Source of the DNA: Tenacibaculum larymnensis
GTDB taxonomy: Bacteria > Bacteroidota > Bacteroidia > Flavobacteriales > Flavobacteriaceae
Direction of reading: 5' to 3'
Length of the DNA: 64,000 nt
NCBI RefSeq assembly: GCF_028829235.1
Contig: NZ_JAIWJY010000010.1
Span: 62,001-126,000, forward strand
The first letter of the stretch is position 1. The number at the start of each line of letters is the position of its first letter. A program made the translations under genes and the position numbers. Shown here in pieces: positions 15,433 to 64,000 of the stretch. The notes under the pieces are model-generated. The model saw nothing but the letters and a program-made list of their open reading frames with translations. It was not told the origin of the DNA and did not search any database.

Positions 15433-15530
15433 ATGACAAAATATGATTTATATCATTTTTTGAAATGAATATAGTTATTAAGCGATAAAAATTGTCTATA
15501 CTATAATTCTACTAACTGATTGTTAGAAGA

Positions 15531-52570: not shown

Positions 52571-54115
52571 ATGGAGGTATTTAAGTCTATAGCCTTATGT
52601 TTTTCTGGAGGAGGATATAGAGCAGCTTGTTTTTCTTTAGGAACATTATCGTTATTAGAAAAAGTAGGATTGTTAGAAAATGTAAAAGCAATTTCTACAG
52701 TTTCTGGAGGGACAATTACTGGGGTTAAGTACGCACAATCACAGATTGAAGGAAAAGATTTTCAAGTTTTTTTTGATGAATACTATAAATGGTTAGCAAA
52801 AGATGAGTTGACAAGTAATGCATTGAGTCATTTAAGATGGCAGTTAATTTGGAATCAGCCAGAGAATAAGCACAAGAGAAAGAATCCGATTAATGCCTTT
52901 GCTATAGAATATAATAAATTAACAAATCAAGCAACTCTAGGGCAAGTTCAAGATGTAATAAGTCAAGGTGAAACACACTTAGAAAGAGTCATTTTTAATG
53001 CTACGGATTTTGATAGTACACATCAGTTTAGATTTCAAAATATTAAAGGGAATCAAAAAAGGTTTGGAAACGGAAAGGTACATAGCAAATATAAAGGAGT
53101 AATAGATGATATAAAGTTAGGAGATGTAATCGCAGCTTCCACAGCTTTTCCAGGAGGATTTGAGCCGATGGGGTTTCCGTATGACTTTACTCCAAAGCAC
53201 AATGATTTAGAAGAAGTAGGTTTGATGGATGGAGGCATTGTAGATAATCAAGGAGCTTCTGTTTTTGTATCAGAAGCACAGAATCAATGTGAAGGGAAAC
53301 CCGAACGTCATGATTTATATTTCTTGTGCGATGTTTCTTCACCATATCCTGGAGAAGGCTTTAAGTTTGCTTCCGATTCATGGTTTAGTAAATATGTGTC
53401 TTATGTATCTAGTGCTTTTACTTTATTGTTTGTGTTGGTAGCTACTGTATTTTTTGGAGTGCAAAAAATGATGGTTTGGTATACGATAAGCGTTGTAATA
53501 TTAGCTTTTTTGGTATTTATTCATTTTTTGTTTTTTTCATTATCCAAATTAATGCAAAATGAAACAGGTGTAGATCAAAGATTGTATTTACCACCAAGAA
53601 GAGTAGGTTTTTATATACTTAACAGAGCGAAGTCTTTGGTTCGCATGGCAAGTGTGGTTTTTCTTAAAAATGATAGAAGACAACATGCAAACGCTATTTA
53701 TAGTACTTTTCCTAATAAAATAATCACATCTACAGTATATGAACTACGATGTAAAGACGCTTCAGGGAATCAAACAACTCGACCAGAGAATGAGAGAGGT
53801 TGGGAAGAGATAATGAAGCATACAGGAGAAATAAGTGAAGCAATTATTAAAAATTCACATAGAAGTACATCATTTGGTACTACTTTATGGTTTACGAAAA
53901 AAGATAAAGCAAATGATATGTTAAACACTGTTATTGCTTGTGGAGAGTATACAGCCTGTTATAACTTGTTGTCATATCTAATTATTCAATACGGAGATAG
54001 AGCTACTGAAATGCCTATTTTTAAAGAATTACTATCTCTATGGAAGAAATTTCAAGAAAACCCCAAGTTTTTAGTAGAAGAACGTCAAGGGAAAATAAAG
54101 ACCATGAACAAATAA
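52571..54115 (+). CDS. patatin-like phospholipase with internal membrane helices
   Basis: A 514-residue protein with a patatin catalytic domain. The oxyanion-hole motif GGGYRA is at 13-18, the nucleophile Ser45 is in STVSGGT, and the catalytic Asp220 is in DGG. The nucleophile elbow is TVSGG instead of the classic GxSxG. Two or three hydrophobic helices (about 275-325) split the protein, so it is likely membrane-bound. The domain past them (about 330-514) is of unknown type. It should cleave acyl groups from lipids. The terminator of the gene overlaps its final codons. Two small genes of unknown function converge on it. Confidence 0.87.
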   Translation: MEVFKSIALCFSGGGYRAACFSLGTLSLLEKVGLLENVKAISTVSGGTITGVKYAQSQIEGKDFQVFFDEYYKWLAKDELTSNALSHLRWQLIWNQPENKHKRKNPINAFAIEYNKLTNQATLGQVQDVISQGETHLERVIFNATDFDSTHQFRFQNIKGNQKRFGNGKVHSKYKGVIDDIKLGDVIAASTAFPGGFEPMGFPYDFTPKHNDLEEVGLMDGGIVDNQGASVFVSEAQNQCEGKPERHDLYFLCDVSSPYPGEGFKFASDSWFSKYVSYVSSAFTLLFVLVATVFFGVQKMMVWYTISVVILAFLVFIHFLFFSLSKLMQNETGVDQRLYLPPRRVGFYILNRAKSLVRMASVVFLKNDRRQHANAIYSTFPNKIITSTVYELRCKDASGNQTTRPENERGWEEIMKHTGEISEAIIKNSHRSTSFGTTLWFTKKDKANDMLNTVIACGEYTACYNLLSYLIIQYGDRATEMPIFKELLSLWKKFQENPKFLVEERQGKIKTMNK

Positions 54116-54132
54116 ATATTCATGGTCTTTTT
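54097..54132. terminator. terminator overlapping the end of the patatin gene
   Basis: AAAGACCATGAA / TTCATGGTCTTT hairpin with a T run. The left arm encodes the last codons of the patatin gene and the stop lies in the loop. It can also act on the converging strand. Confidence 0.85.
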
Positions 54133-54136
54133 ATGT

Positions 54137-54460
54137 TTAAAAAACTAAGACTTTTATCGTGTCAACAATAGTTTTAACAACTTTGTTTTTAAAATGCCCT
54201 AAACTTATTTTCGAAATACCAGCAGTTTGTAAGGCTTTCATTTTAAATAAATCTTTCTGACTTTCTACCAGCCATTCAAAATCTTCTAGGTTAAGCTTTC
54301 CCTGTGCTAGTAAAGAAGTCCACCTTTTTAGTTTGTCTTTTGATTCATTTAAAAATAGTTCAATGTCCTTTTTTGACTCTTTTGAAAATTCACTATACTT
54401 ATCATTGAATAAAAAAGTTAATGAATTTTTTAATTCTTGTAATATTTTTTCGAAATCCAT
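54137..54460 (-). CDS. small helical protein of unknown function
   Basis: A 107-residue, Lys/Glu/Leu-rich, almost fully helical protein without signal peptide. The C-terminal part (TAGISKISLGHFKNKVVKTIVDTIKVLVF) is amphipathic and hydrophobic, so it may touch membranes. I do not recognise the family. It follows the lipoprotein gene by 6 nt on the same strand and converges with the patatin gene. The pair looks functionally linked, but nothing indicates a reaction. Confidence 0.6.
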   Translation of the reverse strand: MDFEKILQELKNSLTFLFNDKYSEFSKESKKDIELFLNESKDKLKRWTSLLAQGKLNLEDFEWLVESQKDLFKMKALQTAGISKISLGHFKNKVVKTIVDTIKVLVF

Positions 54461-54466
54461 AGCAGA

Positions 54467-54928
54467 TTAATTGTTTGAAAGAAGTTGTAGTAACTGATTT
54501 TTAGAAGTAGGTTCTTTTTTACTTTCATACTCAAGTAACAGATTAAGAGCTTCAGTTATTTGTCCTTTAGCTTCTGTTATAAAAAATGGAGAAAGTTTGC
54601 CTTTTTCTTTCCATCGTTTCAAAAAACCAGCAAGTAATTTTTTGTCTTTATCAGCTAATAATAACCACATTTTATAGGTTATTTCGTTGTTAGGTTTATA
54701 CTTTTCATATTCAACAATTTTAGTAATCTCATTTTGCAACTCTTCAATCTCTTTAATGTTGTCTTGATAAGAGTTTTCAGCTTTTTCTATGAGTTGGTTT
54801 GCATCTATTTTTATTTCAATAGTTTTTTGAAATGAGTATTGATCATAAGGAGCTGTTTTAAGAGAGCTGCAAGAAAGAAAAAAGGAGGTAATAAAAATTA
54901 AAATAAAGAAAAGTTTACTAGTTTTCAT
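54467..54928 (-). CDS. small lipoprotein of unknown function
   Basis: A 153-residue protein with a lipobox (SFFLSC, about Cys20, followed by SSLKT). The mature part is helical, with a likely coiled-coil (about 45-75; AENSYQDNIKEIEELQNEITKIVEY) and a Lys-rich C-terminal half. The residues after Cys are not acidic, so it probably stays on the inner face. It is the first gene of a two-gene unit with the 107-residue helical protein. I do not recognise the family. Confidence 0.65.
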   Translation of the reverse strand: MKTSKLFFILIFITSFFLSCSSLKTAPYDQYSFQKTIEIKIDANQLIEKAENSYQDNIKEIEELQNEITKIVEYEKYKPNNEITYKMWLLLADKDKKLLAGFLKRWKEKGKLSPFFITEAKGQITEALNLLLEYESKKEPTSKNQLLQLLSNN

Positions 54929-55043
54929 AGTTAGGTTATTTTTTTGTAGGTAAATTTAATGAATTTAATTTAAGTAAAAAAAGTAGAAAAAAGAAGTGTT
55001 TTTCAGGAACAACTACTTTAATATATAGTTATTAGTTGTTTTT

Positions 55044-55057
55044 ATGATAAAAGTCAT
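55044..55057. promoter_or_regulatory. CRP/FNR-like dyad upstream of stress operon
   Basis: Inverted repeat ATGA-N6-TCAT, with the TGA-N6-TCA geometry of CRP/FNR-family sites. Its centre is about 41 nt before the start predicted from TATCTTTG at 55080-55087, the position of class II activators. The expected -33 TTG is absent. Confidence 0.45.
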
Positions 55058-55071
55058 GAAAATCAACAAGT

Positions 55072-55087
55072 TATATTTGTATCTTTG
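55072..55087 (+). promoter_or_regulatory. tandem -7 elements of stress operon
   Basis: TATATTTG (55072-55079) and TATCTTTG (55080-55087) directly abut. Both match TAnnTTTG. The second predicts a start near 55091, 20 nt before the first ATG. Confidence 0.55.
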
Positions 55088-55110
55088 GGTGAGGTGTAAA
55101 TTAATAAGTT

Positions 55111-55497
55111 ATGGATGTATCAGTCTTTTTACTAAAGTTCTGGGGATGGTACTGTATTATTTTCTTCTTTGTACTAAGTTTTAATCCTAAAAGAGTAAAA
55201 CAAATAGTTGATAATTTACAGGATGCTCGGTTTTTAATTATTCTTTCATTGTTTGCAATTATAATAGGCTTACTTAATGTATTGGCTCATAATATATGGG
55301 AGGCGAATATTAAATTGTTAGTAACTCTATTTGGTTGGTTGGCTTTAATTAAAGGTGTTATCCTATTTACTTTTCCTAAGCAAACTATTAAGCTGCTAAA
55401 ACAAACCAACTTAAAGTTTATACAGGCCATATATGTGTTGTTATTTTTCTTAGGCTTGTTTTTGTTAAATGAAGCTTATGGTATGGTTCCTTTTTAA
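55111..55497 (+). CDS. four-helix membrane protein of unknown function
   Basis: A 128-residue protein with four predicted membrane helices (about 8-24, 41-60, 66-85 and 101-121) and short loops rich in Lys (KRVKQI, KQTIKLLKQ). I do not recognise the family with certainty. It is the first gene of the stress operon; the universal stress protein starts 16 nt after its stop. A sensing or anchoring role in the operon is only a guess. Confidence 0.65.
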   Translation: MDVSVFLLKFWGWYCIIFFFVLSFNPKRVKQIVDNLQDARFLIILSLFAIIIGLLNVLAHNIWEANIKLLVTLFGWLALIKGVILFTFPKQTIKLLKQTNLKFIQAIYVLLFFLGLFLLNEAYGMVPF

Positions 55498-55513
55498 CTG
55501 AATTTTAATCGAA

Positions 55514-56371
55514 ATGAAAAAAAAGATTTTACTACTAACCGATTTTTCTGAAGCATCATATAATGCAATCGCATATGCTTTAGAGCTTTTTAGAACTGAA
55601 AGATGTAGCTTTTATGTGTTAAATGTTTTTAAAACAACATATAATTTAATAGAGGATTTGGTTCCTCCTCAGCCAGGAGAGAAAGGGTACGATGAGCCAA
55701 AGAAAAAATCATTAGAAGGACTGAATAAAATATCAAAATTAATAGCGTCAAAAGAAGAAGGAAATCCTTTTCATGAGTTTGATTATATCTCTCTGGAAAA
55801 TAAATCACTATTGAGTGCAACTGAGGAAATAGTAGAGCAAAAAGATATAGAAATGGTTGTAATGGCAACGAAAGGATTAACTAATGATAGTAGTTCTGTA
55901 TTTGGTAGTAATGCAATACAGGTAATGGAGAAGATTCGTAATTGTCCTGTTTTAGTAGTACCAAAAAAAGCTAGGAAGCAAATACCCAAAGAAATTGTTT
56001 TTCCTACGAGTTACAGAACACATTATAAAAAAAGAGAATTAGAGTATTTAATAGATATAGTTGGAGCTTGTAATGCATCTTTAAGAGTATTACATATTAC
56101 TAATAATGGAGATATAGATGAAAATCAAAAAGAACACAAAGAAATGTTGAATGAATATTTTGAAGGGTTAAAATTTTCATTTCATACATTATCTTGTGTA
56201 ACAGTGTCTACAGCAATAAAATGTTTTGTAGAAAGTAGAGAAAGCGATATAGTAGCTTTTATAAATAAAAAGCACGCATTTTTTGATACTATATTTTCTA
56301 AACCATTAGTAAAGGAAATAGGGTATAAGTTAAAGGTACCTGTGTTGGTGTTACATGATTTAAGAAACTAA
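55514..56371 (+). CDS. universal stress protein, two UspA domains
   Basis: A 285-residue protein of two tandem UspA domains (about 1-150 and 160-283). The first starts with KKILLLTDFSEASYNAIAYA and ends with FGSNAIQVMEKIRNCPVLVVP. The ATP-loop glycines (GxxGx9GS) are partly degenerate. The second domain lacks them and ends in IGYKLKVPVLVLHD. Double Usp proteins accumulate on starvation or hypoxia and often act as nucleotide-binding signalling proteins. It lies 11 nt before the eRF1-like gene, in the same operon. Confidence 0.88.
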   Translation: MKKKILLLTDFSEASYNAIAYALELFRTERCSFYVLNVFKTTYNLIEDLVPPQPGEKGYDEPKKKSLEGLNKISKLIASKEEGNPFHEFDYISLENKSLLSATEEIVEQKDIEMVVMATKGLTNDSSSVFGSNAIQVMEKIRNCPVLVVPKKARKQIPKEIVFPTSYRTHYKKRELEYLIDIVGACNASLRVLHITNNGDIDENQKEHKEMLNEYFEGLKFSFHTLSCVTVSTAIKCFVESRESDIVAFINKKHAFFDTIFSKPLVKEIGYKLKVPVLVLHDLRN

Positions 56372-56382
56372 AAAACAAAACA

Positions 56383-56793
56383 ATGAAAAACATAGGAGTT
56401 TGGTTAGATAAAGAGAAAGCTCTTGTTGTAACCATTGAAAATGGAACAGAAAACATGAAAACGATACCTTCTAATATAGAAACGTTTCGTATTCACGGAG
56501 GCTCTGGAACTCGATTTAAGGGAGGTCCGCAAGATGTGGTTCAGGATAGTAAGTATTTAGAAAGAGAAAAACATCAAACGAAAAGATATTTTAATGAGCT
56601 AGCAGAAGAGGTTAACAATGCTGATTCATTAGCCATTTTTGGTCCTGCTGAAACTTTTGAAAAATTTAAGAAAGAGTTGGAAAGCTCTCATAAAGAATTA
56701 AATGCAAAGGTTAAAAAAGTGCAAAGAGTTGATAGTATGACAGACAATCAAGTAAAGGCTTTAGTTAGAGATTTCTTTAAAAATGGAAACTAG
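56383..56793 (+). CDS. one-domain eRF1/Pelota middle-domain-like protein
   Basis: A 136-residue protein. The order of elements fits the middle domain of archaeal/eukaryotic release factors and their bacterial relatives: strand KNIGVWLDKEKALVVTIENG, a glycine-rich loop HGGSGTRFKGGPQD with GGPQ at 47-50 where eRF1 has GGQ, a helix (EREKHQTKRYFNELAEEV), strand ADSLAIFGPAETFEKF, then VKKVQRVDSMTDNQVKALVRDFF. Small stand-alone relatives are annotated as translational-machinery proteins, and Balon-like relatives hibernate ribosomes. A ribosome-binding stress role is inferred, not shown. It overlaps the nuclease gene by 11 nt. Confidence 0.65.
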   Translation: MKNIGVWLDKEKALVVTIENGTENMKTIPSNIETFRIHGGSGTRFKGGPQDVVQDSKYLEREKHQTKRYFNELAEEVNNADSLAIFGPAETFEKFKKELESSHKELNAKVKKVQRVDSMTDNQVKALVRDFFKNGN

Positions 56794-57631
56794 TCCGAAT
56801 AAAATAACAATAGTAAAAGCTTCTGGTGAAGTTGTACAGTTTTCTTTAGCTAAATTAAAAAAGTCACTTAAAAGAACTGGGGCAGATGATACTTTAGTGT
56901 CAGAAATTATAGAAATAGTTCAAGGTGAATTGTACGAAGGAATAACAACTAAAGAAATTTATAATAGAGCCTTTGCTTTACTAAAGAAAAAAAAGAATGT
57001 ATTTGCTTCAAAGTATAAACTTAAAAAAGCAATATACGAACTTGGACCTACAGGTTATCCCTTTGAATATTTTATAGCAGCAGTTTTAAAATACTCAGGG
57101 TATAAGGTAAAAGTAGGAGAAATTTTGCAAGGTGAGTGTGTACAACACGAGGTTGATGTGTTAGCTCATAAGAATAATGAAACTACTGTTGTAGAGTGTA
57201 AGTTTCATAGTGAACAAGGCTTTGTGTGTAATGTAAAAGTTCCTTTATATATACATTCCAGATATAATGATGTTAGAAATTATTGGAATACTTTTAATAA
57301 GCATAAAACAACGCTAACTCAAGGTTGGGTTGTAACAAATACTCGATTTACAGAAGACGCTACACAATATGGTAATTGTGCAGGGTTGTATCTGTTAAGT
57401 TGGGACTACCCGAAAGAAAATAGCCTAAAAGATATAATTGATAGGCTAGGATTATATCCAATAACAGTTTCTACACTCTTAACTAAAAGGGAGAAACAGT
57501 TTTTATTGAATAGAGATGTAGTGCTTTGTAGAGAGTTGATAAAAGATAGCTTTTATTTAGATCATTTAGGTGTTTCAGATACGAGAAAAACTAGAATTTT
57601 ATCTGAAATACAACAATTGTGTAGTGCTTAA
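56783..57631 (+). CDS. ATP-cone fused to Mrr-type restriction nuclease
   Basis: A 282-residue two-domain protein. Residues about 6-90 match the ATP-cone of ribonucleotide reductases and NrdR (ITIVKASGEVVQFSLAKLKKSLKRTGADD, then ITTKEIYNRAFALLKKK). Residues about 88-205 match an Mrr-like PD-(D/E)xK nuclease: GPTGYPFEYFIAAVLKYSGY with Glu95, HEVDVLAHKNNETTVVECKF with Asp125, Glu138 and Lys140. It may therefore cut DNA in response to nucleotide state. No methyltransferase lies nearby, so it is not a standard restriction system. It overlaps the eRF1-like gene by 11 nt and is followed by a beta-CASP RNase gene after 12 nt. Confidence 0.82.
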   Translation: METSPNKITIVKASGEVVQFSLAKLKKSLKRTGADDTLVSEIIEIVQGELYEGITTKEIYNRAFALLKKKKNVFASKYKLKKAIYELGPTGYPFEYFIAAVLKYSGYKVKVGEILQGECVQHEVDVLAHKNNETTVVECKFHSEQGFVCNVKVPLYIHSRYNDVRNYWNTFNKHKTTLTQGWVVTNTRFTEDATQYGNCAGLYLLSWDYPKENSLKDIIDRLGLYPITVSTLLTKREKQFLLNRDVVLCRELIKDSFYLDHLGVSDTRKTRILSEIQQLCSA

Positions 57632-57643
57632 AAAGGAAGTAAT

Positions 57644-59017
57644 ATGCTAAATTTTGCAAAAGTTCATTTTTTAGGGGCAGCAGGTACAGTTACAGGTTCA
57701 AAGTTTTTGATTGAAGCTTGCGGAAAGCAAATTATGATTGATTGCGGCATGTTTCAAGGTCTGAAAGAGCTTAGAGAATTAAACTGGGCGGAACTTCCTA
57801 TTGATGTTGAAAAAATAGATGTTGTGTTATTAACTCATGGACATTTAGATCATGTGGGGTTTTTACCACGGTTATATAAGCAAGGGTTTAGAGGTAGAAT
57901 TATAGGAACAGCTCCAACATTGGCTATTGCAGGAATTATTTTAAGAGATAGTGCTAAAATCCATGAAGAAGAAGCGCAAAAAGCTGCCGAAGAAAATTAT
58001 AGTAAACATAATCCAGTATTACCTTTTTACACAGTTACTGAAGCAGAAAACACCATGAGCTTATTTCAAGTTGAAGAAGAAGGGAAATGGGTTTCTTTTT
58101 CTGAAAAAATCTCTTACAGATTTCAATACAATGGGCATATTATAGGGGCTACTTTTATAGAATTAAATATCAATGAAAAAAGATTTGTGTTTTCTGGAGA
58201 TGTAGGAAGAGTGAATGATTATCTGCTAGAAGCTCCCAAAAAACCAGTATGGGCAGATTATCTTTTTATAGAGAGTACCTATGGTCATAAGTTACATCCA
58301 AAAGAAAATATAGAAGAAATTTTATCAGCGTTAATCAGAGAAACAATTGTAAATAAAGGAAATTTAATCATTCCTAGTTTTGCTGTTGAGCGATTACAAA
58401 TGCTAATATATGTTTTATGGAAGCTGTATAAGAAAAATAAAATACCAAGCATACCAATTTTTGTTGATAGCCCAATGGGAAATAATGTTTTGGAGGTTTT
58501 TAAAAGGTATCCACAATGGCATAAACTACCCATGAATGAATACGAAGCAATGTGTAACCATATAAATATTATTGAATCTTATAGAGAAACATGGGAAACT
58601 ATTGATGACCCTAGGTCGAAAATAATAATTGCTGGAAGTGGAATGGTAACAGGAGGTAGAGTTTTAACTTATTTACAACAACTAATAGATGAACCAACAA
58701 CAACAGTTTTATTAGTAGGGTATCAAGCAGAAGGAACAAGAGGAAGGCAGTTGCAAGAAGGATGTCATGAAATAAAGTTTTATGGAAGGTACTTTCCTGT
58801 TAAAGCAAGAGTAGAGAGCATAGAAAGTTTATCTGCACATGCAGACCAAGGAGACTTGTTAAATTGGTTAAGTGATATTAAAAACATACCTGAAGAAGTG
58901 TTTCTTATACATGGTGAACAAACGGCTTTAGATGCTTTTAGATTGAAAATACAAAGAGAAAACAATTGGAATGTATGTATTCCAAAACTACATGCTATAA
59001 AAGAGTTAATGATATAG
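57644..59017 (+). CDS. beta-CASP metallo-beta-lactamase RNase
   Basis: A 457-residue protein of the CPSF73/beta-CASP group. The zinc site is complete: THGHLDHVG (65-70 region), His164 and Asp186 (FSGD). The beta-CASP insertion follows (FIESTYGHKLHP, IPSFAVERLQML), and the RNA-specificity end has SLSAHADQGDLLNWL and a final LIHGEQ. These enzymes process or degrade RNA endo- or exonucleolytically. It is in the stress operon between the ATP-cone nuclease and the helical protein. Its co-expression with the release-factor-like protein suggests coupled RNA turnover and ribosome control. Confidence 0.92.
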   Translation: MLNFAKVHFLGAAGTVTGSKFLIEACGKQIMIDCGMFQGLKELRELNWAELPIDVEKIDVVLLTHGHLDHVGFLPRLYKQGFRGRIIGTAPTLAIAGIILRDSAKIHEEEAQKAAEENYSKHNPVLPFYTVTEAENTMSLFQVEEEGKWVSFSEKISYRFQYNGHIIGATFIELNINEKRFVFSGDVGRVNDYLLEAPKKPVWADYLFIESTYGHKLHPKENIEEILSALIRETIVNKGNLIIPSFAVERLQMLIYVLWKLYKKNKIPSIPIFVDSPMGNNVLEVFKRYPQWHKLPMNEYEAMCNHINIIESYRETWETIDDPRSKIIIAGSGMVTGGRVLTYLQQLIDEPTTTVLLVGYQAEGTRGRQLQEGCHEIKFYGRYFPVKARVESIESLSAHADQGDLLNWLSDIKNIPEEVFLIHGEQTALDAFRLKIQRENNWNVCIPKLHAIKELMI

Positions 59018-59041
59018 AAGTTTAACCTAAAAACTAACTCG

Positions 59042-59482
59042 ATGAAAACAACAAAAACACACTTAAAATATGTAGAATGGTTAAGTGCAGAAGATATGCA
59101 TTTAACGTCAAAACAATGGTTGTCTGAACTTTCATTTTTAAAAGATGAACAACTCTTTTTTGAGGACTTAATACGAAAATATATTTTTGAGCTTATAGCA
59201 CCAGACCAATTTAAAAAAACAACTAAAATAGTAGAACTGTTGAGTAGTTCAAGAAAAAAAACGGAAGAGTTAATCAAACTCGTTGAAGCTCATGAAAGAG
59301 GTTTAGAAGTAATGGTAGATGGAGTTGATGAAGTAGTAGAGGAAGAAGTGTACAAGAATGAACATAGAAGGTTAATAGTAATGTTTAGTGAATTTTTAAA
59401 AGAATATAAAAATTTAAAACAAACGCTTTTTACTACCGTAAAAAAGATAGCCAAGTCAGAAAAAAAAGGATTAAATCAATAA
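59042..59482 (+). CDS. helical protein of unknown function in stress operon
   Basis: A 146-residue, soluble, almost entirely helical protein. It reads like a four-helix bundle with long charged helices (WLSAEDMHLTSKQWLSELSFLKDE, KIVELLSSSRKKTEELIKLVEAHERG, NEHRRLIVMFSEFLKEYKNLKQTLFTTVKKI). I do not recognise the family. Its size and pattern recall ferritin/hemerythrin-like or RaiA-unrelated helical bundles, but the metal-ligand spacing is not convincing. It lies 24 nt after the beta-CASP gene and is the last gene of the operon, followed by a perfect terminator. Confidence 0.6.
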   Translation: MKTTKTHLKYVEWLSAEDMHLTSKQWLSELSFLKDEQLFFEDLIRKYIFELIAPDQFKKTTKIVELLSSSRKKTEELIKLVEAHERGLEVMVDGVDEVVEEEVYKNEHRRLIVMFSEFLKEYKNLKQTLFTTVKKIAKSEKKGLNQ

Positions 59483-59487
59483 TAAAT

Positions 59488-59520
59488 AAAAACGGAGTTC
59501 AATATTGAACTCCGTTTTTA
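59488..59520. terminator. bidirectional terminator between converging stress genes
   Basis: Perfect 16-bp palindrome AAAAACGGAGTTCAAT / ATTGAACTCCGTTTTT with A and T runs for both directions, between the + operon end and the - strand universal stress gene. Confidence 0.92.
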
Positions 59521-59529
59521 TTTTATAAT

Positions 59530-60393
59530 TTAAGCGATGTAACGCTTTACTACCCATAAAGGGACATGTAAATCATGAGTAAACAACTCTTCTGTAACAC
59601 TTCCTACTAAAAGAGAAGTAAAGTTGTTATGACCTTTGTCTGCAACAAACAAAATATCAGTTTTGTCTTTTTCAGCAATTGCCCTTATTTTTTCAGGGAT
59701 GCTATCTTCTCCTGCTGAAGCTTTAATAGTCTCTATATTTAATGCTTTTGTCTTGTTAAGTAGCTTTTCAAATTGTAAATCAACATGTTTTTCTACTTTT
59801 TCACGAGCCTTATCTACTTTTATGTAAGGGAAAAATAGCTGAGGAATTTTAAAAACATTTAATGCTTTTAAAATAGACTTTTTCTTATTGTTAATAGATG
59901 AAGCTGTATTAAAAGCTTTAAGAGAAGCTGAAGAAAAGTCGGTTGCAACCATTAGGTTTTCTGGATTAAGGTTTGCTTCCTTAGGAATAGAAAGAATATT
60001 GCATTTTGCCATTCGTAATAATTTTCCTGAAACAGAACCAGAACCTTTATAGGTGTTTTTATTGCCTAAAATAATTAAGTCAGCATGGTATTTATTGGCA
60101 ACATAACTAATTAAACTTTCTGTGTAAGCATCGTCAGAAACTAATAATTCGTAATTACAATCACTATCAAAGTGCTTGCTAATACTATTATCTAACTCTT
60201 CCTCAATAATGTCTTCAATACTTATGTTTTCTAACTGTTCAGAAAATAAATTACTTATTTCATACTTTTTTACATTATGAATAAAATATACATTTTCTGT
60301 TTCATGGTTTTTAGCGAGCATGCTACAGTACTTAATAAGTGTAACATCTAGTTCAGAAAGGTCTAAGGCTACTAGTATATTTTTAATTTTCAT
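59530..60393 (-). CDS. universal stress protein, two UspA domains
   Basis: A 287-residue double UspA protein. The first domain (about 1-138) starts with KNILVALDLSELDVTLIKYC and ends with GSGSVSGKLLRMAKCNILSIP. The second domain (about 145-285) starts with ENLMVATDFSSASLKAF and holds FVADKGHNNFTSLLVGSVTEELFTHDLHVPLWVV, where the ATP-loop is better preserved than in the copy at 55514-56371. It is the last gene of the porin-BCCT unit (3 nt after BCCT) and converges on the stress operon. The two Usp genes have distinct sequences, so they are not a recent duplication. Confidence 0.88.
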   Translation of the reverse strand: MKIKNILVALDLSELDVTLIKYCSMLAKNHETENVYFIHNVKKYEISNLFSEQLENISIEDIIEEELDNSISKHFDSDCNYELLVSDDAYTESLISYVANKYHADLIILGNKNTYKGSGSVSGKLLRMAKCNILSIPKEANLNPENLMVATDFSSASLKAFNTASSINNKKKSILKALNVFKIPQLFFPYIKVDKAREKVEKHVDLQFEKLLNKTKALNIETIKASAGEDSIPEKIRAIAEKDKTDILFVADKGHNNFTSLLVGSVTEELFTHDLHVPLWVVKRYIA

Positions 60394-60396
60394 AAT

Positions 60397-62013
60397 TTAA
60401 GATTTTTGTTTTTTCGAATCTATTAATCTTTTTACAGTTTCCTGGTATTCTTCCTTTTCTTTTTGGTTTAAGCGTTTAAGGTATTCCTTATAATCTTCCC
60501 TTAATCCTTTAAAAAGAGAGTAACACATTAATAACAAAAGTAAGGTAAAAGGAAGACCTGTAGCAATAGAAGCTGTTTGGAGAGCTTTTAAACCTCCGCC
60601 TAATAATAATACAGCGGCTACAGCACCTTCTGCAAGAGCCCAAAATATTCTTTGACCTACAGGAGCGTCAATTTTACCACCAGAAGTTAAACTGTCAACT
60701 ACCAAAGAACCAGAATCTGATGAGGTAACAAAGAAACTAGCAATAAGTATAATAGCGATAATATTTAAAGCCATTGAAAATGGGAAGTCTTCTAAAAACA
60801 CAAAAAGAGCGGTAGCAACATTATCATTCACCCCCTCTGCAATAGTAGGGTCTCCTCCTAAAATTTCATGTAACGAAGTTGCTCCAAAAGCCGTAATCCA
60901 AAATAAGGTAATTAATGTAGGAACAATCAATACTCCAAGAATAAATTCTCTAATAGTTCTTCCTTTAGATACACGAGCTATAAACATACCTACGAAAGGA
61001 GACCAAGCAATCCACCATCCCCAGTAAAAAATAGTCCATGAGTTTTGCCATTCCGTTCCAGTATAGGCTTCAGCCCATGTAGAAAGGTTAATTAAGTCGT
61101 TTGCATAACTACCAGTGTTTTGTACAAATGATTTTAAGATGAAAATAGTAGGACCTAAAATTACTACAGCAAGTAATAAAAGTACAGCGATACGCATATT
61201 CATTTCACTTAAAAACTTTACTCCTTTGTCAACTCCTGAAACTACTGAAATGGTGGCTATTAATGTAATTCCGACAATTAGCCATATTTGTAATGAAATA
61301 CCTGAATCTAAACCAAAAACATGCTCTAAACCAGCAGCAACTTGTTTAACACCTAGTCCAAGAGAAGTTGCTAGTCCAAAAACAGTAGCCAAAACAGCAA
61401 AAATATCTATAACATCACCAATTCTACCATAAATTCTATCTCCTAAGAAAGGGTAGAATACAGAGCGAATTGTTAATGGAAGTCCTCTAGAGTATGTAAA
61501 ATAAGCTAAAGACAAACCAACCAAAGCATAAATTCCCCAAGCATGTAGCCCCCAGTGTAAAAAAGTAACATTCATGGCTTCTTTAGCAGCAGCAGCGGTA
61601 TTAGGGTCAGCTAGAGGAGGTGAAGATAAATGATAAACAGGTTCAGCAATACTCCAAAAAAGTAACCCAATACCCATACCAGCACTAAAGAGCATAGAAA
61701 ACCAAGAGGTAGTTGAAAATTCAGGTTTTGCTTTAGCCCCACCAATACGTAAAGTTCCATATTTACTAAAAGCTAAATAAAGCATAAAGGCAACAAAGAT
61801 GTTAACGGCTAAGATAAATAACCAGCCAGTTTTGTTGGCTATAAAACTCTGCGCTGTATCAAAATATGATTGGGCTCTTTCTTTAAAAAGTAAAGTTAAA
61901 GCTACACTTAGTATTATTACTATAGAAGAAGTAAAGAATACAGGACCGTTAACCTCGAGTCCAAAGATTGATTTCCGCTCGTCACTTCTAATTATTTTTT
62001 TTGCTTTTTTCAT
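60397..62013 (-). CDS. BCCT-family transporter (betaine/carnitine/choline type)
   Basis: A 538-residue integral membrane protein with twelve predicted helices. The family signature WTIFYWGWWIAWSPFVGMFIARVSKGRTIREF is in helix 8. The N-terminal FTSSIVIILSVALTLLF and the aromatic-box Trp residues are also visible. BCCT carriers import quaternary ammonium compounds driven by Na+ or H+ for osmotic protection. The substrate cannot be fixed from sequence alone. The C-terminus is Lys/Glu-rich and long, as in osmoregulated BCCT proteins. It lies between the porin gene (19-nt gap) and the Usp gene. Confidence 0.93.
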   Translation of the reverse strand: MKKAKKIIRSDERKSIFGLEVNGPVFFTSSIVIILSVALTLLFKERAQSYFDTAQSFIANKTGWLFILAVNIFVAFMLYLAFSKYGTLRIGGAKAKPEFSTTSWFSMLFSAGMGIGLLFWSIAEPVYHLSSPPLADPNTAAAAKEAMNVTFLHWGLHAWGIYALVGLSLAYFTYSRGLPLTIRSVFYPFLGDRIYGRIGDVIDIFAVLATVFGLATSLGLGVKQVAAGLEHVFGLDSGISLQIWLIVGITLIATISVVSGVDKGVKFLSEMNMRIAVLLLLAVVILGPTIFILKSFVQNTGSYANDLINLSTWAEAYTGTEWQNSWTIFYWGWWIAWSPFVGMFIARVSKGRTIREFILGVLIVPTLITLFWITAFGATSLHEILGGDPTIAEGVNDNVATALFVFLEDFPFSMALNIIAIILIASFFVTSSDSGSLVVDSLTSGGKIDAPVGQRIFWALAEGAVAAVLLLGGGLKALQTASIATGLPFTLLLLLMCYSLFKGLREDYKEYLKRLNQKEKEEYQETVKRLIDSKKQKS

Positions 62014-62032
62014 GTGTTAATGTTTTATGCTA

Positions 62033-63190
62033 TTAAAAATAGTATCCGATATTTATGTTAAATCTCATGTCCCAATCAGCATTAGGTGTTCCGTTTGCTA
62101 AAGCATTTGTCCATACTGGTCCTAACCAAGGATGATCTTTTCCTGCTGCAAAATCTATATAAGTATAAACATTACCAGCAGTTACTAAGAAACCAAATAC
62201 ATTCATTAAACTGTCTTCAAAATCTACAGCTGCTTTATCCATGTAACCAAAGTCGTTATAAACTTGTATACTAGAAATAGGTTTCCATTTTACAGGGAAG
62301 GTATAAGCAGCGCCTAAAGTATATGTTGTTGCTTCTGTTGCAGTAAGGTAAGGAGCTCCATAAGCAGTTAAGGCTATAAGATCGTTATAAGTAGTATTCT
62401 TTGTATTGTATTTGTAGGTAGATACTTGTGCTTTAGCATCAAAGTTTTTTGCGTTTAGTTGATAGTGTAAGGCAAAAGCATGATGGCTAGATGTATCTTC
62501 AGTATCTAAATTATAAAGACCTCCATATTGTACAGAAAATCCTATTTTATGTTGAATACTTTTGTTACCGAAGTGATAATTTACCTTACCATTTAGTTGG
62601 TTTGTTTCCTTGTATCTTAAATCTAGATTCCCATCCCCATCAATGTCTATTGATGCAACATCGTATGAGTATCGGCTATCAGAAACATCAGAGTTGCTTC
62701 CAAAATTAAGTTCTTCAGCATTTTTAAAAAAAGCTAAGGCGTATTCCCATTTTTTTCCTTTATGGGTAAACTTTACCCCCATATCATGGTCATCTTCTAG
62801 TCCTAGGTAATAATTAATACCAAAAAACCAACTATGAGAATTGTATTGAGTAATACCAAAAGGCACTTGTGTTAATCCTAATTGAATGTTGTCTTTTTCG
62901 TTAAAGTCATACCCTAACCAGCCTTGTTTAAGCATGCCACCTCCAAAACTTTGTGAGTAAAAGCGATATTCAGCATTTAGCTTTATTCCTTTGTATTTTG
63001 CTTTAGCATTAATTCTAAAGACGTCGAAACCGAAATCGCCTCCACGTTTTTTTTGACCGTCTTTCCAAGAAGATAGGTTGTAGTTAAATCGAAGTGCTCC
63101 GCCAATTTTAACCTCAGGCTTTTCTTGTGAAAACATAACTGTAACAAAAGAAAAAGCAACTAAGACTAGGCTTTTTTTTGTGAAATTCAT
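62033..63190 (-). CDS. OprO/OprP-like outer-membrane porin
   Basis: A 385-residue protein with a signal peptide (LVLVAFSFVTVMFSQ) and a chain of amphipathic beta-strands ending in MRFNINIGYYF. The terminal Phe and alternating aromatic residues are typical for outer-membrane barrels. The pattern (GGALRFNYNLSSWKDGQKKRGGDFGFDVFRINAKAKYKGIKLNAEYRFY) resembles phosphate-selective-porin-like proteins of Bacteroidota. It is first in the porin-BCCT-Usp unit, which suggests that it feeds the BCCT substrate through the outer membrane. A leader of about 200 nt precedes it. Confidence 0.83.
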   Translation of the reverse strand: MNFTKKSLVLVAFSFVTVMFSQEKPEVKIGGALRFNYNLSSWKDGQKKRGGDFGFDVFRINAKAKYKGIKLNAEYRFYSQSFGGGMLKQGWLGYDFNEKDNIQLGLTQVPFGITQYNSHSWFFGINYYLGLEDDHDMGVKFTHKGKKWEYALAFFKNAEELNFGSNSDVSDSRYSYDVASIDIDGDGNLDLRYKETNQLNGKVNYHFGNKSIQHKIGFSVQYGGLYNLDTEDTSSHHAFALHYQLNAKNFDAKAQVSTYKYNTKNTTYNDLIALTAYGAPYLTATEATTYTLGAAYTFPVKWKPISSIQVYNDFGYMDKAAVDFEDSLMNVFGFLVTAGNVYTYIDFAAGKDHPWLGPVWTNALANGTPNADWDMRFNINIGYYF

Positions 63191-63396
63191 TGTTGATATT
63201 AATAAGTGTGAAGAAAGTGTACTCGTAAAAGCACATTTTCAAGTGAAAGGATAAGAGAAAACTCTTTCTAGCTTAAAAAAATGGTAATTATTTTGAAGGA
63301 GGAATGAATTTATCTGATTGATTCCTAAAAACTAAAAAGTTAAAACTGAATACTCGTTTATTCTTTTTGTCTTTGAGTTTTTTTATCATAAGACTG

Positions 63397-63426
63397 CAAA
63401 GTTACTGATTAAAATGGGGTTTTCAA
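63397..63426 (-). promoter_or_regulatory. promoter of porin-BCCT-Usp unit
   Basis: - strand TTG (63426-63424), a 19-nt spacer, then TAACTTTG (63404-63397), a full consensus match. The predicted start is near 63392. Confidence 0.65.
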
Positions 63427-63445
63427 AAAAAGAGAGTATTGGAGT

Positions 63446-63460
63446 GTTAAAATTTTTAAC
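63446..63460. promoter_or_regulatory. perfect dyad upstream of porin promoter
   Basis: GTTAAAA-T-TTTTAAC inverted repeat, centred about 61 nt upstream of the predicted start. This is a classic activator position, but it could also be a chance AT-rich palindrome. Confidence 0.35.
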
Positions 63461-63511
63461 TAAAATAAGAATTAGTGGTTCTCATACTTAATCCTATTTT
63501 TAGAATATGAT

Positions 63512-63555
63512 AAAAAAACAAAAGTAGTATTAATACTACTTTTGTTTTTTTTTTT
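63512..63555 (-). terminator. terminator of hsp20
   Basis: A long perfect palindrome whose core is AGTAGTATTAATACTACT, extended by ACAAA/TTTGT, with A and T runs of more than seven. It directly abuts and partly overlaps the Hsp20 stop codon region. Confidence 0.9.
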
Positions 63556-64000
63556 ATTGGATTTCAATAATTTTTTTAGGTTTTTGCTTTGTTCCTTCTT
63601 TTTTATGAAGGTTTAGTTTTAAAATACCATTTTCGTAACTAGCCTTAATATCTTGATCTGTGTTGATAGATTCAGGTAAGCTTAAAGATCTTTTAAATGA
63701 ATTGTAACTAAACTCTTTACGTGTAAAGTCTTCTTCTTTTTCTTCAACCTCATGTTTTTTCTCTCCGCAAACGTTAAGTACATTGTTATCAATAGTTATT
63801 TCAAAGTCTTTTTTTGAAAATCCTGGAGCGGCAAACTCGATTTCGAAGTTGTCATCCTGTTCCTTAACATTCATAGCGGGCATTAAACTATCTTCTTCAA
63901 AGAAGTTAGTGTTAAAAAAATCATCAATGTCTAGAAAGTTTCTTAAACCTCCGTTAGTCCATAAAGGTAACCCTCTTCTTTTTTCGTTAAATTTAATAAG
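63554..64000 (-). CDS. Hsp20/alpha-crystallin small heat-shock protein, 5'-truncated
   Basis: 148 residues of a small heat-shock protein are present. The frame stays open to the window end (LIKFNEKRRGLPLWTNGGLRN... is the typical N-terminus), so only a few N-terminal residues are missing. I therefore reject the internal ATG at 63883 as start. The alpha-crystallin domain (NFEIEFAAPGFSKKDFEITI, FSYNSFKRSLSLPES, ASYENGILKLNLHKK) is complete, with the Ile-x-Ile-like IIEIQ tail. It holds unfolding proteins in the cytoplasm. It stands next to the Usp/BCCT and stress operons. Confidence 0.93.
   Translation of the reverse strand, partial: LIKFNEKRRGLPLWTNGGLRNFLDIDDFFNTNFFEEDSLMPAMNVKEQDDNFEIEFAAPGFSKKDFEITIDNNVLNVCGEKKHEVEEKEEDFTRKEFSYNSFKRSLSLPESINTDQDIKASYENGILKLNLHKKEGTKQKPKKIIEIQ

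Follow-up and report, generated by a model that had tools for sequence, protein, structure and literature searches.

A predicted oxygen-limitation dormancy regulon with a standalone eRF1-type middle-domain protein in Flavobacteriaceae

Two described gene sets come closest to the locus reported here: the DosR regulon of Mycobacterium tuberculosis, in which an oxygen-sensing kinase and a response regulator are combined with many universal stress proteins (Usps), and the low-oxygen-activated (lxa) locus of Burkholderia cenocepacia. In M. tuberculosis, the Balon-type eRF1 homologue Rv2629 is hypoxia-induced, and the state of the ribosome is controlled in hypoxia (PMC10901736). The lxa locus comprises six Usps, the metallo-beta-lactamase protein BCAM0300, a short-chain dehydrogenase (SDR), and a phosphofructokinase (PFK); a FixLJ/FixK-FNR link has been proposed for it, and a comparison with DosR drawn (PMC6127331, PMC9733578). 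Here we analyzed a 64,000-nt stretch of Tenacibaculum larymnensis (contig NZ_JAIWJY010000010.1, positions 62,001–126,000, or C2:62001-126000 in our contig labelling), hereafter “the window”, whose coordinates are used throughout; the labels C2, C23, C34, and C47 denote contigs of the same 3.66-Mb genome. Near its right end, the window carries a six-gene plus-strand operon that includes a 136-aa eRF1-like protein, followed by a minus-strand Hsp20 gene. Judging from sequence, this operon and Hsp20 are probably parts of an oxygen-limitation dormancy regulon, sharing a regulator site and encoded beside a regulatory pair of oxygen-sensor type. In the open-licence literature, we found no account of this cluster, or of any DosR- or lxa-like dormancy regulon in flavobacteria.

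Like DosR and lxa, the flavobacterial locus has a common regulator site for several Usps and stress chaperones, and homology (FixL/EcDos PAS matches and a conserved His) predicts that it also encodes an oxygen-sensing kinase. Overall, the cluster looks like a programme for shutdown and survival at oxygen exhaustion, with a logic like that of the DosR and lxa dormancy sets. The parts, however, are different. The DosR regulator is of the LuxR type and its sensor of the GAF type, whereas the flavobacterial cluster has a receiver-CRP/FNR regulator and a PAS sensor instead. Unlike in the DosR regulon, the eRF1 homologue consists of the middle domain only, and the operon includes ATP-cone/Mrr and beta-CASP genes. 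The lxa locus belongs to another phylum, has another gene order, and in the passages available is not reported to include an eRF1-domain protein; a separate locus on C23 of the T. larymnensis genome resembles its metabolic half (PFK, SDR, and AMP phosphorylase). The FixL-FixJ-FixK/FNR system shares with the cluster a FixL-like PAS domain with its His, a CRP/FNR output domain, and a TGAT-N4-ATCA site at about -41.5; it differs in that the flavobacterial cluster combines the FixJ-like and FixK-like parts in a single receiver-CRP protein.

The site was found by unbiased gapped-palindrome enumeration upstream of cluster genes, which returned TGAT-N4-ATCA, by its sequence a typical FNR/FixK-type site; a first pattern, TTGA-N6-TCAA, gave nothing useful, and the true spacing came from the enumeration. 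We trained a position weight matrix without the T. larymnensis genome and tested it on loci left out of training: the site was detected upstream of 39/40 Hsp20 and 132/162 Usp genes, compared to 31/241 other flanking genes (Fisher p 3e-47), as well as for Ca-ATPase (19/21), a ~137-aa protein (family c10; 13/15), DUF2267 (4/4), and the kinase (17/23). Permuted matrices yielded a mean of 1.7 and a maximum of 29 out of 404. At 201 of the 337 sites, a TAnnTTT -7 element was located exactly 29 nt past the site centre, other offsets being rare, and the palindrome itself lies ~60 nt ahead of start codons. In Flavobacterium, TAnnTTTG is the sigma-A -7 box, spanning -12 to -5 in Flavobacterium psychrophilum (PMC9723704). 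Since the box spans these positions and lies 29 nt from the palindrome centre, the latter would be placed near -41 (about -41.5), which fits the fixed-distance geometry of a class-II CRP/FNR activator.

In T. larymnensis, this composite site is present ahead of the plus-strand operon, three Usps, the B12-type ribonucleotide reductase gene (NrdJ), and several neighbours. For the operon, the predicted activator site TTATGATAAAAGTCATGA (55042–55059, + strand; 11.1 bits) has its centre ~61 nt before the ATG and a predicted sigma-A-type -7 box TATCTTTG (55080–55087, + strand) 29 nt after that centre, the two together matching the composite pattern. This palindrome is identical in T. discolor, and scores 18.7 bits at the same place in T. 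caenipelagi. The Hsp20 palindrome (20.0 bits, 64070–64087) lies just outside the window, with further sites to its right before two Usps (65022 and 67779) and NrdJ (66818), while a Usp adjoining the cbb3 oxidase on C47 has a site of 13.2 bits. Strict sites number 23 in the whole genome, and 6 of these are within 13 kb beside the cluster.

Next to these sites, a kinase and a receiver-CRP regulator form a pair at window-equivalent positions 67808–70089. The kinase is soluble, with a single N-terminal PAS domain; of the 14 PDB structures that it matches, 13 belong to heme oxygen sensors, and these matches include S. meliloti FixL (1d06, E 3e-10), E. coli DosP (EcDosP), and B. japonicum FixL. In 21 kinases, a nearly invariant His (H34, proximal, PAS F-helix) aligns with the heme-ligand His of FixL, and a PAS protein taken from the same region as a control matched a diguanylate cyclase and none of the heme sensors. 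We thus predict that the kinase is of the oxygen-sensing FixL-like type. The regulator combines a receiver (phosphorylatable Asp conserved) with cyclic-nucleotide (cNMP)-binding and HTH_Crp_2 domains; FNR and FixK2 are the closest solved structures of its output half, in which the recognition-helix Glu and Arg are conserved. The genome also encodes a standalone FNR-like protein (C47:155461, 228 aa) in the vicinity of cbb3 oxidase genes. Its Cys 4, 7, 53, and 106 are conserved among relatives, and its gene is preceded by the same palindrome; in two other genomes, a neighbouring Usp has a site as well. The recognition-helix pattern TE..IR is common to both proteins, and both appear from their sequences to be oxygen-type regulators.

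We evaluated conservation across 199 Flavobacteriaceae genomes, essentially one per genus, along with 40 neighbourhoods from different genera and 79 named loci. The eRF1-like gene was detected in 50 of the 199 genomes, the T. larymnensis protein being 95% identical to its T. discolor homologue. The standard cluster runs on a single strand from the kinase and receiver-CRP regulator through one or more Usps, a small membrane protein, and further Usps to the eRF1-like gene, then continues with ATP-cone/Mrr, beta-CASP, helical, Hsp20, helical, and lipoprotein-like genes, with variable flanks. Among the 40 genus representatives, a Usp is found immediately 5' of the eRF1-like gene in 34, the ATP-cone/Mrr and beta-CASP genes follow it directly in 25, and the kinase-regulator pair opens the cluster upstream in 23. 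The six-gene order of the window, whose recurrence well beyond close relatives the first-pass annotation had named as a test, recurs in relaxed form: the contiguous order is limited to Tenacibaculum (the window and, among named loci, T. discolor, T. lutimaris, and T. caenipelagi), the relaxed set (membrane protein, then Usp, eRF1-like, ATP-cone/Mrr, beta-CASP, and helical genes) extends to 11/40 genera, and the core of eRF1-like, ATP-cone/Mrr, and beta-CASP genes to the 25 already mentioned. Other classes of the phylum also have the eRF1-like gene, but none of the loci examined outside the family shows the cluster neighbourhood. The receiver-CRP regulator (E < 1e-60) is encoded in 41/50 genomes with the eRF1-like gene versus 45/149 without (p 1.7e-10), and a few genus representatives, like six of the named loci, have RaiA/HPF (family c20) close to the cluster. 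Taken together, the gene set is real, conserved, and very probably co-regulated. Aquimarina clusters have no kinase-regulator pair within 10 kb, and start instead with a Ca-type P-ATPase carrying the palindrome in 19/21 cases. Two families of no assigned function (c1 and c7) also track the cluster: a 146-aa three-helix protein, often as two paralogues flanking Hsp20, and, at the cluster end, a lipoprotein-like protein of 222 aa.

The conserved cluster and the promoter geometry are computed results; we infer that oxygen limitation is the most likely signal. Several observations weigh against this picture. The loci share descent, so that the counts are not independent events, and genes with a common promoter need not have products that work together. 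The operon site is weak in the Tenacibaculum genome (11.1 bits), yet conserved and correctly placed, and a His at the FixL position is no proof of heme binding. Finally, where a genome has the eRF1-like gene and lacks the receiver-CRP regulator, the Usp site is still present (4/4), and the examined genomes lacking the regulator encode the FNR-like protein, with the same upstream site, as a candidate binder. Given this persistence of sites, the receiver-CRP protein cannot be claimed as the only binder. It also fits an alternative version of the oxygen regulon in which the standalone FNR-like protein binds the sites, the FixL-like kinase and receiver-CRP protein only modulating this response or having other targets. 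The palindrome upstream of the FNR-like gene, the common TE..IR helix, and the inclusion of OmpW, a known type of FNR target, among predicted extra targets point in the same direction. On the other hand, the kinase-regulator pair is physically in the cluster in 23/40 genera, its own promoter has the site in 17/23 held-out loci, and the receiver-CRP regulator strongly co-occurs with the eRF1-like gene; we see the FNR-like protein as a plausible primary binder, at somewhat less than even odds. The site itself is well supported, and either protein is a candidate for binding it.

An alternative view is that of a general stress or starvation cluster, with oxygen as one input or none, whose neighbours are kept together by general stress selection. 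Stress operons of many kinds do contain Balon and baeRF genes (PMC10901736, PMC6514570), and Hsp20, Usp, MscS, DnaJ, RaiA, and DUF2267, all found as neighbours, are stress genes of a broad type. However, a single FNR-like site with fixed geometry together with an oxygen-sensor-type kinase is specific, and the core stays while flanks vary. We consider a general stress role unlikely, and retain the oxygen-limitation regulon as the preferred reading.

Two perfect 18-bp hairpins split the region into three transcription units, i.e., the plus-strand operon, a porin-BCCT-Usp unit facing it, and Hsp20. The operon (55111–59482) begins with a 128-aa small membrane protein without known family (55111–55497), an open reading frame also upstream of the eRF1-like gene in 11/40 genus representatives, and a tandem-type Usp with a divergent second half (55514–56371; PF00582 E 3.8e-16, scoring as one stretch 2–150, the N-terminal half only). 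These are followed by the eRF1-like protein (56383–56793), the ATP-cone/Mrr nuclease (56783–57631), the beta-CASP ribonuclease (57644–59017), and a 146-aa helical protein (59042–59482). Successive gaps are 16, 11, -11, 12, and 24 nt: the spacing is as tight as first described, with one overlap (-11 nt) in place of several. The first hairpin (59484–59523), a bidirectional terminator, separates the operon from the converging unit, which includes a Usp with two Usp stretches (59530–60393) and a BCCT carrier (60397–62013), both matched in Pfam/NCBIfam, and a presumed porin with no family match in the same scan. The second, terminator-like hairpin (63512–63551) closes the minus-strand Hsp20 unit (63554–64000 and on past the window end, likely ATG at 64006; PF00011 E 9.6e-24). 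Every gene of the first-pass annotation was found in place, and the families it named were confirmed by Pfam/NCBIfam or, for the eRF1-like protein, by fold, with the exception of the porin. An Rfam scan of 54000–64000 gave no match, and E. coli-type promoter scans returned hits at shuffle level, hence uninformative.

That annotation had also suggested one programme for all of these genes. The proposal is supported for the plus-strand operon and Hsp20, which have a shared, precisely placed promoter element, and is not supported for the osmotic unit. The latter is adjacent, convergent, and contains a Usp, as would suit a functional part of a wider programme; however, BCCT and porin genes accompany the cluster in 4/79 named loci, all Tenacibaculum, no palindrome > 4 bits lies upstream of the porin or its unit, and terminators stand on both sides. 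The osmotic unit is a local neighbour, and a functional role for it in the programme is very improbable.

The eRF1-like protein has no Pfam match above cut-off. Its AlphaFold2 model (pLDDT 77) retrieved, on a DALI scale, eRF1, aRF1, Pelota, or Balon in all of the first 33 rows (Z 12.4 to 9.4), the best unrelated fold being the RNase H fold of YqgF (Z 9.4). The best match (Z 12.4) covers 121–123 residues and aligns to eRF1 144–277 (Foldseek E 1e-6), and the sequence profile matches Pelota 3j15 (E 0.004). At the level of the model, this confirms a standalone eRF1-type RNase H-like middle-domain fold. The fold and the placement in a stress operon, sometimes beside RaiA/HPF, are shared with Balon (PMC10901736) and the baeRF clade (PMC6514570). 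The three-domain Balon architecture with its EF-Tu-binding C-domain is not: the model spans the middle domain only, with N- and C-domains missing. None of the baeRF Pfam families 2, 5, 10, and 12 was reached at cut-off for the 27 members scanned (best E 0.001–0.014), with 14.2 bits to family 5 for the window protein versus a cut-off of 27. We filed it as a divergent baeRF-like protein and not as Balon because the outer two domains are missing and no baeRF Pfam model matches at cut-off.

The release-factor GGQ motif is absent from this protein. The loop instead reads GGSGTRFKGGPQ, a strongly conserved GGSG...GPQ loop, with GPQ nearly invariant, placed where eRF1 has GGQ; in this the protein differs from Balon, which lacks GGQ. 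Loop position and Q-to-H spacing, compared by eye, offer a lead that GPQ may be equivalent to GGQ; a direct hhalign comparison of the baeRF-like profile with the middle domain of human eRF1 (its sequence confirmed with 2hst) gave no match, nor did a PF03464 search of the T. larymnensis genome. Burroughs and Aravind described standalone middle-domain baeRFs and baeRF-HPF gene links, and proposed non-catalytic ribosome inhibition (PMC6514570). A bolder and rather doubtful possibility is that the GPQ-loop protein represents a not yet described, oxygen-controlled, single-domain module for ribosome silencing or rescue, which would enter the peptidyl-transferase centre without codon reading and free or park stalled ribosomes at the oxic-anoxic switch, together with the operon's beta-CASP RNase and ATP-gated Mrr nuclease.

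Both of these nucleases appear catalytically intact. In the ATP-cone/Mrr protein (PF03477, and PF04471 [Mrr_cat] over cut-off), at least 95% of 82 relatives share H122-E123-D125...E138-C139-K140, which includes the D...ExK motif (D125, E138, K140) of PD-(D/E)XK nucleases. The beta-CASP protein (PF10996, PF07521) retains HxHxDH and shares its core of metallo-beta-lactamase, beta-CASP, and RMMBL domains with the aCPSF1 and type VII Cas14 ribonucleases; unlike these, it scores below both cut-offs (371.8 bits to Cas14, cut-off 800; 280 bits to aCPSF1) and has neither the aCPSF1 N-terminal part nor a CRISPR context. The 146-aa protein is predicted to form three long helices, with no significant fold match beyond generic helical bundles, and is often present as two paralogues per cluster. 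The Cas14 score, along with weak partial matches of the Mrr protein to CARF-PDDEXK models, could suggest an anti-phage or CRISPR-like defence operon. However, no direct repeats or array were found, PADLOC hits were partial only, the genes are accompanied by Usp, Hsp20, and an eRF1-type domain, they are conserved across genera with a stress-type promoter site, and nearly all family genomes with the cluster have one copy. We rejected this reading as extremely improbable.

Under the favoured oxygen-limitation regulon, oxygen loss would be sensed by the soluble FixL-like kinase and passed to the receiver-CRP/FNR response regulator, which, perhaps with the standalone FNR-like protein, would bind TGAT-N4-ATCA at ~ -41.5 for class-II activation of the promoter set. 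Folds and catalytic residues were computed, and from these we infer each product's activity: the tandem Usps may hold an ATP-linked stress state, the eRF1-like protein may act on idle ribosomes by occupying or processing their peptidyl-transferase centre, the beta-CASP RNase and ATP-cone/Mrr nuclease may cut RNA and DNA under nucleotide control, Hsp20 may hold unfolded protein, and the B12-type ribonucleotide reductase may supply deoxynucleotides without oxygen. Translational shutdown and nucleic-acid surveillance, as suggested in the first-pass annotation, would be possible outcomes. Marine flavobacteria are major particle degraders that meet steep oxygen gradients, and the cluster gives them, in many genera, a gene set with a defined sensor, regulator, and site. 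It joins an eRF1 domain reduced to its middle part with an ATP-cone nuclease and a beta-CASP RNase in one predicted oxygen programme, and makes the action of middle-domain-only eRF1 homologues on ribosomes directly testable.

Right of the window, the minus strand encodes two further tandem Usps, NrdJ, the receiver-CRP/FNR regulator, and the PAS histidine kinase, all beyond the reach of the first-pass annotation. A second, metabolic locus (C23, 2906–15843 of the locus stretch) carries beta-CASP and ATP-cone/Mrr paralogues with a Usp, the beta-CASP paralogue being 54% identical to the window protein. By names read from sequence, its neighbours are a phosphoribosyl pyrophosphate synthetase, an AMP/thymidine-phosphorylase-like gene, PFK, a class-I aldolase (FbaB), and a type-II glyceraldehyde-3-phosphate dehydrogenase; no palindrome > 8 bits was found at this locus. 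HPF is encoded elsewhere in the genome, without a palindrome site.

Additional sites were observed away from the cluster. On C34, OmpW has a composite site of 15.8 bits, and a 137-aa protein that resembles a group-3 truncated globin, although without Pfam match, has a weak one (9.9 bits). Predicted targets to the right of the cluster (C2:137950-138901) include a patatin-like phospholipase, an MlaE/ABC (mce-type) operon, and an L,D-transpeptidase, which suggests envelope remodelling within the regulon. Inside the window, the palindrome ATATGATTTATATCATTT (15441–15458, 19.0 bits) lies 54 nt before a minus-strand 109-aa Fe-S_biosyn/HesB-type gene, likely a further member of the regulon.

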